Under the pieces are notes generated by a model. It was not told the DNA's origin. It made no database searches and worked only from the letters and a program-made list of their open reading frames with translations. This document shows positions 60,224-64,000 of a DNA stretch of 64,000 nt, one piece after another (positions within the stretch are counted from its first letter, which is position 1; the number at the start of each line of letters is the position of its first letter). Source of the stretch: Rathayibacter sp. VKM Ac-2857 (GTDB lineage: Bacteria > Actinomycetota > Actinomycetes > Actinomycetales > Microbacteriaceae); assembly GCF_013205025.1 (NCBI RefSeq), contig NZ_JABMLE010000003.1:186001-250000 (forward strand), given 5' to 3'. The position numbers were made by a program, and so were the translations under genes.

Positions 60224-60245
60224 TATGGTCGCGCTAACCGCTTAG
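60224..60245 (+). promoter_or_regulatory. Promoter -10 and LacI-type operator of the SAHH-like/ECF cluster
   Basis: TATGGT (60224-60229) is a -10 box. CTAACCGCTTAG (60234-60245) is a near palindrome with central CG and arms CTAA/TTAG, the form of LacI-family operators. A repressor there would cover the transcription start, 25 bases before ATG 60270. Binding by the divergent LacI protein is inference. Confidence 0.6.
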
Positions 60246-60269
60246 AACCGCCGACTCCCCTGGAGTGTC

Positions 60270-60944
60270 ATGCACGCCACCCTCACTCCGCTGCGTCGCG
60301 CGGTGCCGCCCGCGACGGCGGCCGATGCGACCGGCGACTCGCGGGTCGTCCGCGCGCTGAGCCGCACCGCCTGGGCGCAGGCCGTGCTCCGCGCGGTCGC
60401 CGCGGCCTCCAACCTCTCCTTCGCGCACACCCGGGTCGCCGTGCTCGGGACCGGACCGCTGGCCGTCGAGCTGGCGACCAGGACTGCGGCGATGGGCGCA
60501 CGCGTGGTCGTCGTCGGCGACGACCCGGTCGCGTTGGTCGAGATCGCTCAGCTCGGAGTCACGGTGCAGACGGCGGAGTCTGCCGAATTGCGGGATGCGA
60601 CGATCGCGTTCGCGACGGGCGAGCGCCCGGAGCCGGTCGTGCCGGCGCTGCTCGGCGGCGGCGGTCCGCTGCTCCTGGTCGATGCGGCGGAGGAGCTCCC
60701 GGCCGTCACCGCGGTCACCGACCCGTCCTCCGGCCGCCCCGGGATCGACCGGATCGTGGACGCCGAGCGCGAGCTCTTCCTCCTGGTGGCGCGCGACGTC
60801 GCCGACGGCTCGGCCCGCCGCACCCGCGAGCAGCTGTCCGCGCGCTTCGCGGCTGCGGTCGACGCCGCCCGGGAGCAGGATCCCTCTCCCGACGACCTGC
60901 ACGACCACGCCGACCGGGCCCTCGCGCTGGAGCTGCTCCGATGA
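60270..60944 (+). CDS. Rossmann-fold protein related to the NAD domain of SAHH (224 aa)
   Basis: The 224-residue protein has a central Rossmann motif RVAVLGTGPLAVELATRTAA followed by MGARVVVVGDDP. The helix before it and the Rossmann segment resemble residues about 190-240 of the next protein. Its C-terminus is charged and helical (RTREQLSARFAAAVDAAREQ). It has no substrate domain. ATG 60270 has GGAG upstream, and its stop overlaps the next ATG by 4 bases. It may be a partner subunit or a degenerate paralogue; I do not recognise a named family. Confidence 0.7.
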   Translation: MHATLTPLRRAVPPATAADATGDSRVVRALSRTAWAQAVLRAVAAASNLSFAHTRVAVLGTGPLAVELATRTAAMGARVVVVGDDPVALVEIAQLGVTVQTAESAELRDATIAFATGERPEPVVPALLGGGGPLLLVDAAEELPAVTAVTDPSSGRPGIDRIVDAERELFLLVARDVADGSARRTREQLSARFAAAVDAAREQDPSPDDLHDHADRALALELLR

Positions 60945-62227: not shown

Positions 62228-63942
62228 CCGAGCTGCTGCGCCTCGAGGGCGTCTCCGTGACCTACCGCAACGCGGAGCAGCCGTCGCTGGTCGACGCGAG
62301 CTTCTCGGTGTCGAGCGGCGAGGTCGTGCTGGTCGCGGGGCCGTCCGGCTGCGGCAAGAGCACGCTGCTGCGGGTGCTGAACGGGCTCGTACCGCGCTCG
62401 TATCGCGCCGAGGTGACCGGGCGGATCGAGGTCGAGGGCCGCGACGCGGTTCCGCTCGCGCTGCGCGACATCTCGGAGGTGGTCGGCACGCTGCTGCAGG
62501 ACCCGGGCAAGCAGGTCGTCGGGCACAGCGTGCTCGCCGAGATCGCGTTCGGGCTGGAGAACCGCGGGACGCCTCCCGCCGAGATCCGCGAGCGCGCGCA
62601 CCGGGTCGCCGAGCGGCTCGGGCTGACCGCGCTGCTCGCGACGCCGCCGCACGAGCTCTCCGGCGGGCAGCTGCAGCTCGTCGCCTTCGCCGGGATCCTC
62701 GTGCTCGATCCGCGGGTGATCGTCATCGACGAGCCGCTGGCCAACCTCGATCCCGACGCGGCGGACGTGCTGCTGCGGGCGGTGCGCGCCTACGTCGACG
62801 GCGGCGGGGCGGCCGTGATCGTCGAGCACCGCGTCGACGAGGTGCTCGCGCTGCAGCCGGACCGCGTGGTCTACCTGGAGGAGGGACGGGTCGTCTTCTC
62901 CGGAGACGTCGCCGGATTCCTCGAGGTCGCGTCGCCGGAGTCGGTGAAGCTGCCGTTCGAGGCGCTGCTCGCCGGCGCCGCGGGGGAGGAGTCACCTGAA
63001 GAGGAGGCGCGGCCGGTGACGGCCGGTACCGCCCGCCTGCACTTCGACGGCGCCGAGCTCGGCTACGGCGCGCGGACGATCGTCGCCGCCGTCGACCGCC
63101 GCTTCCACGCGGGCGAGCGGGTCGCGATCCTCGGCCGGAACGGCGCCGGCAAGTCGACGCTGATGCGCGCGGCGGTCGGGCTGGTCGCGCCGACTCGCGG
63201 ACGCGTCCTGCTGGACGACCGGCCGGTGCACGAGCTGACCGCGGCCGAGCTCGTCTCGACCTGCGGCTACCTCTTCCAGAACCCGGGCCAGGCGCTCTTC
63301 AGCGAGACGGTCGAGGCGGAGCTGGCCTTCGGGCCGCGCAATCTCGGGGTGCCGGCGGAGGAGATCCCCGCGATCGCCGATGCCGCGCTGCGCGCCGTGT
63401 CGCTCGACGACGTCCCGGGGATCCTGCAGCGGCCGCCGCGCACGCTCTCGTTCGGGCAGCAGCGCCGGCTCGCGGTTGCGCTCGCGCTGACCCTGCGGCC
63501 GCGGACGCTGATCCTCGATGAGCCGACGGCGGGGCAGGACGAGCGCTCCTCCCGTCACTTCCTCGACGCGGTCTGGGCGATCGACGGGATCGACAGCGTG
63601 TACTTCATCACCCACGACGTCGACATGGCGCTCGCCCGCGCCGACCGCGTGGTCGTCGTCGACGGCGGCGGGATCGTCGCCGACGCCAGCCCCGCCGAGG
63701 TCGTGCACGACACGGCGCTCTGGCACGGCCCGGGCGTCGACCCCGGCTCCTCCCGCGCGGTGCTGCGCGAGACCGACTTCGTGCGCGCCGCCCGGCGCCA
63801 CGGACCCGCGAGCGGCCGCCTTCCGCGCCCGCTCGACCTTGCCCGGCGCCTCCGCCGCGCGCAGCAAGGCCCCGGCAGCACCCCCGACGCCAGCACCGCC
63901 GACCCCCGCTCCTCCGCCCCCCTCGAAAGGACACACCCGTGA
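62224..63942 (+). CDS. ECF-type ABC transporter ATPase, two domains fused (EcfA1A2)
   Basis: The 572-residue protein holds two ABC ATPases in tandem. First half: Walker A GPSGCGKST (39-47), Q-loop LLQDPGKQVV, signature LSGGQLQL, Walker B VIVIDEPLANLD. Second half: GRNGAGKST, LFQNPGQALFSETV, a changed signature LSFGQQRR and LILDEPTAGQD. A Pro/Arg-rich tail of about 60 residues ends it. The Q-loop forms are those of energy-coupling factor importers for vitamins and cofactors. It couples to the SAHH-like gene (ATGA-type overlap, GTG start) and to the next gene. Confidence 0.92.
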   Translation: MTELLRLEGVSVTYRNAEQPSLVDASFSVSSGEVVLVAGPSGCGKSTLLRVLNGLVPRSYRAEVTGRIEVEGRDAVPLALRDISEVVGTLLQDPGKQVVGHSVLAEIAFGLENRGTPPAEIRERAHRVAERLGLTALLATPPHELSGGQLQLVAFAGILVLDPRVIVIDEPLANLDPDAADVLLRAVRAYVDGGGAAVIVEHRVDEVLALQPDRVVYLEEGRVVFSGDVAGFLEVASPESVKLPFEALLAGAAGEESPEEEARPVTAGTARLHFDGAELGYGARTIVAAVDRRFHAGERVAILGRNGAGKSTLMRAAVGLVAPTRGRVLLDDRPVHELTAAELVSTCGYLFQNPGQALFSETVEAELAFGPRNLGVPAEEIPAIADAALRAVSLDDVPGILQRPPRTLSFGQQRRLAVALALTLRPRTLILDEPTAGQDERSSRHFLDAVWAIDGIDSVYFITHDVDMALARADRVVVVDGGGIVADASPAEVVHDTALWHGPGVDPGSSRAVLRETDFVRAARRHGPASGRLPRPLDLARRLRRAQQGPGSTPDASTADPRSSAPLERTHP

Positions 63943-64000
63943 CCGCCACCACCTCCACCGCCGCGAAGACCGGCCCCTGGGCCGTTTCCTCCCGCACGAT
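63939..64000 (+). CDS. Start of the next ECF operon gene (partial)
   Basis: GTG 63939 overlaps the ATPase stop by 4 bases (GTGA), with GAAAGG upstream. Only about 20 residues are visible (TATTSTAAKTGPWAVSSRT), polar and Thr-rich. By position it should be the transmembrane EcfT or the substrate-binding S component; the sequence shown cannot decide. Confidence 0.7.
   Translation, partial: MTATTSTAAKTGPWAVSSRT

Follow-up and report, generated by a model that had tools for sequence, protein, structure and literature searches.

An importer-linked gene cassette with an altered S-adenosylhomocysteine hydrolase-type enzyme in Rathayibacter and other bacteria

The end of a 64,000-nucleotide stretch of Rathayibacter sp. 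VKM Ac-2857 DNA (termed here the window; bases 186001–250000 of contig 3, NZ_JABMLE010000003.1, of the 4.6 Mb genome) carries a gene cassette that links an importer to an altered enzyme of the S-adenosylhomocysteine hydrolase (SAHH) type. It consists of a LacI-family repressor gene and a divergent operon that encodes a Rossmann-type stub, the SAHH-like enzyme (termed beta), an energy-coupling factor (ECF) importer, an amidohydrolase and a Cupin_5 protein (Table 1). Genes past the window edge were read on the same contig and are given in window numbering. The cassette might serve in the uptake and breakdown of an adenine nucleoside such as S-adenosylhomocysteine (SAH).

Table 1. Features of the cassette in Rathayibacter sp. 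VKM Ac-2857 (window numbering; aa, amino acids)
Feature	Position	Strand or operon	Matches and remarks
LacI-family repressor gene, 328 aa	58856-59842	-	PF00356 + PF13377 (Peripla_BP_3); divergent from operon
LacI operator CTAACCGCTTAG	60234-60245		near-palindrome, 24 bases 5′ of first start codon
Rossmann-type stub, 224 aa	60270-60944	+	weak Rossmann/AdoHcyase match; NF004005 residues 192-273, E 1.4e-7 (single sequence)
SAHH-like enzyme beta, 428 aa	60941-62227	+	PF05221 (AdoHcyase) + PF00670 (AdoHcyase_NAD)
Fused EcfA-EcfA′ ATPase, 572 aa	62224-63942	+	two ABC_tran stretches (PF00005 x2)
ECF S component, 188 aa	63939-64505, only 63939-64000 inside window	+	PF07155
T component CbiQ	64518-65342, outside window	same operon	PF02361
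Amidohydrolase, deaminase type	65330-66673, outside window	same operon	PF01979
Cupin_5 protein	about 66655-67155 (likely ATG), outside window	same operon	PF06172

A preliminary description of the window had proposed a tightly overlapping operon of a stub, an SAHH-fold enzyme, a fused ECF ATPase and a further gene. This organization is borne out by the coordinates and by Pfam and NCBIfam matches, and four-base overlaps are found at all three junctions (stub/beta, beta/EcfA-A′ and EcfA-A′/S component). The S component that was to be sought downstream is indeed there, and two ATPase domains, a T and an S component form a complete ECF set in one gene row (PF00005 twice, PF02361 and PF07155). The fused EcfA-A′ passes TIGR04520 (328.4 bits, cut-off 315) and narrowly misses TIGR04521 (320.5 versus 330). 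As in other ECF transporters encoded by single operons, the EcfA-A′, S and T genes are adjacent and on one strand, an arrangement known as group I; the cassette differs from these in that its ECF genes go together with genes for an amidohydrolase and an SAHH-like enzyme, and in that its relatives have other importer types. The amidohydrolase, a core part of the cassette, lies just past the window edge and was beyond the view of the preliminary description.

Residues of beta were counted in mammalian numbering on 114 rows, which include repeated genomes and one broken copy (locus L053); row L078 is out of frame at positions 55–59, which are counted on the 113 readable rows. The equivalents of K186, D190 and R137 are present in 114 of 114 rows, and those of D131, E156, T157 and N191 in 113, the exception being the broken copy. 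The NAD motif GxGxxG (G212, G214, G217) is invariant (19/19). The 5′-site histidines are absent. Position 55 is V in 86 rows, F in 19, I in 4, T in 2, and L and M in one each (His 0/113); position 301 holds G (113 rows) or A (one row; His 0/114), with Gly300 retained; and position 353 holds N (113 rows) or D (one row; His 0/114). Position 57 is E in 112/113 and position 59 is K in 113/113 rows. The HxExK motif of S-inosylhomocysteine hydrolase (SIHH) is incomplete in beta, as its H is found in none of the 113 readable rows, and the beta motif is [V/F]xExK. As to the two irregular rows, the L053 copy is interrupted by an in-frame stop and departs from the others at conserved positions, and none of the other cassette genes was found near it; L078, a Rathayibacter record, has an early frame break in beta that may be an assembly error.

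Roles for several of these residues in SAHH are given in one mechanistic account: His55 acts as general base when water is added at C5′, the intermediate is stabilised and the homocysteine channel gated by His301, Asp131 works at C4′ and Lys186 at the 3′ oxygen, and His353 contacts the base via its main chain (PMC4647836). The loss of His353 may matter less, because the base is bound via the main chain. A second source links HxExK to a preference for a hypoxanthine substrate, S-inosylhomocysteine (PMC10978960). Set against these roles, the beta sequence reads as that of an enzyme that would retain oxo-purine recognition and the C3′/C4′ machinery and would have lost the 5′-water machinery. On the roles so described, ordinary hydrolysis by beta is not expected, because the 5′-site histidines, His55 as general base among them, are lost. 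The preliminary description envisaged uptake followed by NAD-dependent cleavage. A conserved uptake-plus-enzyme system with intact NAD and redox residues is present, but plain hydrolytic cleavage is doubtful since the 5′-site histidines are gone.

Beta has kept the SAHH fold. An AlphaFold2 model (pLDDT 91.9) matches SAHH/SIHH structures of Pyrococcus and Thermotoga, including P. furiosus SAHH with inosine and T. maritima SAHH, with template modelling (TM) scores of about 0.9; among the 50 PDB matches listed, scores by query length are 0.85–0.90, except for 0.69 and 0.71 with two Thermotoga chains. Beta scores 414.3 bits against the adenosylhomocysteinase model NF004005 (cut-off 275) and 356.5 bits against TIGR00936, below the cut-off of 497.6. 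A quick tree, with SH-aLRT support only, was made from 77 of 134 rows after near copies and L053 were dropped. Beta forms a single clade (support 99) that is sister to a paralogue, alpha (support 90); the tree program warned of meeting long branches, which concern canonical SAHH and a group termed family B. Members of the beta clade are 41–98% identical to the window protein and are separate from both canonical SAHH and a third group. Canonical bacterial SAHH (AhcY, TIGR00936) and beta share fold, NAD domain and C3′-oxidation residues; beta differs in its score under the TIGR00936 cut-off, in having no 5′-site histidines, in having Arg137 in every row and in its separate tree branch. Beta is a distinct subfamily of the SAHH type, its evolutionary history is unusual, and the label 'adenosylhomocysteinase' is probably wrong. 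This NCBIfam labelling may have led to mistaken methyl-cycle reconstructions for Curtobacterium, Leifsonia, Mycolicibacterium, Actinomyces and others.

Eight loci (L046, L111, L123, L125, L130, L133, L136 and L140) have a full-length alpha gene immediately 5′ of beta, and intact alpha occurs in Rhizobiales, Leucobacter, Spirochaetales and others. All eight full-length copies keep His55, His301, His353 and HxExK. The alpha of Rhizohabitans (L085), 316 aa long, has lost the His55, His301, His353 and HxExK residues, and by the gene calls made here alpha has 184 aa in Streptosporangium and 111 aa in Nonomuraea. Rathayibacter, Cryobacterium, Nocardia and mycobacteria have the Rossmann-type stub in place of alpha. 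In other loci the stub is fused to the N-terminus of beta, where 28 of the 35 Curtobacterium loci and all three from Leifsonia show an in-frame extension with the stub motif. Since the stub-family profile matches alpha residues 187–341, i.e. the NAD domain (E 2.9e-10), the stub is a remnant of a second SAHH-like subunit, namely the NAD-binding domain left from alpha. The preliminary description's 'Rossmann-only paralogue' is accordingly a Rossmann-type gene as proposed, and is better described as an eroded remnant. Searched against the beta alignment, the stub profile matched the N-terminus of beta, probably by way of stub rows L152 and L143, which run into beta; the assignment of the stub is based on its match to alpha. 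The NAD domain is the contact region in SAHH oligomers, and the stub may be a partner of beta. A structure model of a fused stub–beta relative is confident overall (pTM 0.87); its PDB re-alignment spans residues 156–557 and barely covers the N-terminal domain.

Conservation of the cassette was assessed in 299 genomes of the family, searched with the enzyme and, separately, with the S component. The locus samples are 33 family loci and 80 named loci, the latter picked solely by the enzyme's own motifs as the best 80 of 309 confirmed relatives; as some genomes are shared, neither the 113 loci nor the 114 beta rows are independent samples, and 35 of the named loci are from Curtobacterium. Partner genes were scored by tblastn with score thresholds set by the authors, in place of family searches at each locus. 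The named loci represent 30 name groups, from actinobacteria to Rhizobiales, Granulosicoccus and Spirochaetales, and the closest relatives among these best 80 are from Rathayibacter (up to 98% identity). The amidohydrolase is present in 77 of the 80 (the exceptions are L091 and L123, both short, and L136) and in 32 of the 33 family loci; the Cupin_5 gene is found in 57 named loci and a LacI orthologue in 11.

The importer varies. Named loci have an amino-acid-type ATP-binding cassette (ABC) importer in 50 cases, ECF in 19, a CUT1 sugar-type ABC importer in five and none in six; the corresponding numbers for the family loci are 28, three, one and one. Exactly one importer class is present in 74 of the 80 named loci, and two classes in none of the 113. 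Four of the six named loci without an importer end at contig ends (L091, L122, L127 and L139), and two have full flanks (L089 and L138). On the enzyme tree, importer type requires three changes. That varied importers accompany one enzyme pair is good evidence for a substrate common to importer and enzymes. The enzyme–importer association is genuine and strongly conserved. The gene set of which the Rathayibacter operon is a copy is conserved across the actinobacteria, where the preliminary description had suggested looking for it, and also in other bacteria. The ECF–SAHH tie pointed out in that description is also real, but the ECF importer is not a one-off, as the same enzyme is found with three importer types.

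The S-component search gave eight positive genomes of 299, four of them Rathayibacter and the other four from a single further genus; of these last four, two were inspected, and both have the gene away from the cassette. These S-component relatives (40–42% identity; L067 6728-7273, with PF07155, and L068 6319-6837) lie outside any cassette, upstream of an apparent threonyl-tRNA synthetase gene, and in L067 a PdxS-type gene (PF01680) is found further on.

The divergent LacI gene and LacI-type operator noted in the preliminary description both hold up. The repressor has the features of LacI/GalR proteins: a LacI helix-turn-helix (PF00356), a sugar-binding-like domain (PF13377) and a local palindromic operator. 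Orthologues with 50–61% identity adjoin the same enzyme in Cryobacterium, Rhizobiales, Aestuariivirga, Leucobacter and Pseudomonadales. The sequence CTAANCGNTTAG has a single site in the genome, which is the operator, and a reversed-sequence control gave 0. For the 8-mer count, eight of 14 extracted upstream regions were used (two Rathayibacter, Cryobacterium, L046 of the same family, Rhizobiales, two Leucobacter and Pseudomonadales), and the core CGCTTAGA is present in 8/8. Nine of the 11 named LacI-bearing loci have CTAANCGCTTAG and the remaining two, from Leucobacter, hold CTAAGCGCTAAG; across 163 loci the CTAANCGCTTAG pattern is confined to LacI-bearing loci or short pieces of those same places. 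A 14-mer match with up to three mismatches within the window alone gave one site versus 0.59 expected, which is not significant, and it is the conservation across species that makes the operator convincing. Given the single CTAANCGNTTAG site, the repressor appears to act on its own operon alone, and a wider regulon was rejected on this ground. Promoter and terminator scans of 59800–60300 found nothing. As a separate observation, a 31-base palindromic repeat, TCTCGATACGCNCGCTNCGCGNGCTACTCGA, is found in nine copies in the window with up to three mismatches (at 13854, 14052, 21445, 31355, 41862, 42062, 58638, 59878 and 60090) and in none of 100 shuffles; three of the nine copies flank the LacI gene.

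Beta is not the housekeeping SAHH of the window genome. No PF05221 protein other than beta was found there, and the genome has LuxS with an adjoining PNP_UDP_1 nucleosidase, taken as MTAN. No sign of a normal SAHH role for the enzyme is seen in this setting. Among 45 family genomes with beta matches (G246 and G056, with partial matches, are left out; the copy in G024 is broken), 13 have LuxS, 27 canonical SAHH, none both and five neither. As 40 of the 45 have LuxS or SAHH, beta mostly adds to SAH recycling and does not replace it. A housekeeping function was rejected on these grounds and on the residue pattern.

Clues to the substrate come from several partners. In the amidohydrolase, H91, H93, H232, E235, H292 and D343 are invariant (19/19); we take these to be the metal ligands (HxH, His, His, Asp) and the catalytic Glu of metal-dependent deaminases. 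The amino-acid-type binding proteins have Arg in 78/78 and Asp in 77/78 at the alpha-amino-acid-binding positions, presumably those that hold the alpha-carboxylate and alpha-amino groups. An inosine-uridine nucleoside hydrolase gene (PF01156) is just beyond the LacI gene in the alphaproteobacterial locus L111 and its near relative L133. In Parafannyhessea umbonata, LuxS (PF02664) and a PNP_UDP_1 nucleosidase are encoded divergently beside the cassette (L149 6347-7541), the sole such case among the 113 loci by a tblastn screen. Another PNP_UDP_1 gene is found 3′ of the cupin gene at L149 12562-13347.

From the E-x-K residues, a 6-oxo purine is predicted at the beta step. E-x-K and the amidohydrolase, the Arg/Asp pair, the PF01156 neighbour and the L149 gene pair together favour as substrate an adenosyl amino acid, for instance SAH. 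We tentatively prefer, at close to an even chance of its being right, a LacI-repressed cassette for uptake and breakdown of an adenine nucleoside with an amino-acid group at C5′, the likeliest being SAH or a close relative such as S-adenosylmethionine (SAM) or another 5′-thio adenosyl amino acid. An inducer would lift LacI off its single operator, and the compound would be taken in by the ECF importer, or in relatives by the amino-acid-type or sugar-type ABC importer. The amidohydrolase would then deaminate adenine to hypoxanthine; beta, with bound NAD, would oxidise C3′, remove the C4′ proton and expel the 5′ group; and the nucleoside part would be salvaged.

A further step, possible though on balance doubtful, is that beta represents a catalytic type new to the SAHH scaffold, which acts on a hypoxanthine nucleoside by C3′ oxidation and 5′ elimination with no water added there, as an oxidative lyase or with a non-water nucleophile. 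Beta would have arisen from an alpha/beta pair in which alpha keeps the hydrolase residues; in actinobacteria alpha would have decayed to an NAD-domain partner that was later fused to beta, and the whole unit would be a salvage system that swaps importers.

Several findings weigh against the uptake and breakdown of an adenosyl amino acid. The histidines at positions 55, 301 and 353 are absent from beta. The adenine specificity of the amidohydrolase is putative; the protein is far under the cut-off of all 25 NCBIfam models listed (best 137.8 versus 532 bits), including the MTA/SAH deaminase model NF012037 (55.7 versus 779) and the 5′-deoxyadenosine deaminase model NF005557 (111.2 versus 522). 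Granulosicoccus (L136) has alpha, beta and importer, and the amidohydrolase is absent from the 14.4 kb examined. The Cupin_5 and LacI genes are in only 57 and 11, respectively, of the 80 named loci. The S component passes the riboflavin-named PF07155 (70.8 versus 26.7 bits) and shows no relative of solved structure. CUT1 importers usually carry sugars, and they are found at some beta loci; importer type alone leaves the substrate unfixed.

The riboflavin-named match raises the question of whether the imported compound is an adenine nucleoside at all. It could be a vitamin or cofactor fragment (riboflavin-like) or another ring amine handled by the amidohydrolase, which matches several deaminase families weakly, and ECF importers mostly serve vitamins. 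We consider this unlikely: beta retains the equivalents of purine-binding E-x-K and of ribose-binding E156, T157 and D190 (roles from PMC10978960 and PMC4647836), and elsewhere this enzyme pair is accompanied by amino-acid-type importers that keep their amino-acid-binding residues. A riboflavin importer was not accepted, although PF07155 is passed, since the NCBIfam riboflavin S model NF010182 gives 70.6 bits, under its cut-off of 99. A distinctly unlikely variant leaves the nucleoside in place and has beta act as an NAD-dependent oxidative nucleosidase, with C3′ oxidation followed by loss of the base instead of the 5′ group. Glycosidase family GH4 uses an analogous NAD-dependent oxidative mechanism on sugars, and the LacI and CUT1 partners are compatible with sugar release, as is the retention of C3′-oxidation residues together with loss of the 5′-water histidines with such chemistry. 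Free base is a side product in SAHH assays, according to PMC10978960. Yet the Asp131 equivalent is retained in 113 of 114 rows, which on its C4′ role points to C4′–C5′ chemistry, and a separate nucleoside hydrolase is present in two related alpha/beta loci.

Loss of three active-site histidines could also mean that beta has no catalytic activity and serves as a regulator or scaffold. Human SAHH-like AHCYL1/2 have such a function, and the fused relative has human SAHH-like structures 3mtg and 3gvp among its fold matches. This is very unlikely in view of the almost absolute conservation of K186, D190, N191, E156, D131 and the NAD motif, and it is alpha, not beta, that eroded in actinobacteria, which marks beta as the copy under constraint. 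Finally, beta would be an ordinary SAH or S-inosylhomocysteine (SIH) hydrolase of the organism's own methyl cycle, with the transporter incidental, if its score above the NF004005 cut-off, its SAHH fold and intact NAD domain, and the five of 45 beta genomes that have neither LuxS nor canonical SAHH were taken at face value. We regard this as most improbable, given the missing 5′-site histidines, the LuxS and adjoining nucleosidase in the window genome, LuxS or canonical SAHH in the 40 other beta genomes, and an importer next to beta in 74 of 80 loci.

The nearest known parallel to the proposed uptake and breakdown route is the SIHH plus DadD deaminase pathway of Methanocaldococcus and Thermotoga. 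Both have a deaminase-type amidohydrolase and an SAHH-fold enzyme with E-x-K in the purine site, and alpha carries the full HxExK. The cassette differs in that beta is without the H of HxExK and two other histidines, in that its genes adjoin an importer and in some cases LacI, and in the separate SAH-turnover genes of 40/45 genomes. No account of a cassette that combines an importer with an altered SAHH-type enzyme was found in the papers searched, which covered few subscription papers. If the reading is true, the cassette would allow adenosyl amino acids or similar nucleosides to be taken up, and beta would be a natural experiment on an SAHH scaffold deprived of its water-activating histidines. 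With three importer types, one of which has familiar amino-acid-binding residues, the substrate is open to direct ligand-binding tests.

Family B of Microbacteriaceae (L069–L073, from genomes G190, G040, G028, G103 and G145; 32–36% identity) resembles beta in being SAHH-like and in having E-x-K and H353N (5/5), but differs in that His55 and His301 are kept and in D131N and D190E (5/5). It is possibly a second altered enzyme. The neighbours of the L069 gene are not those of the cassette: they encode an adenosine deaminase, a thymidine phosphorylase and ABC permeases, and the same deaminase cluster is found in L070–L072.

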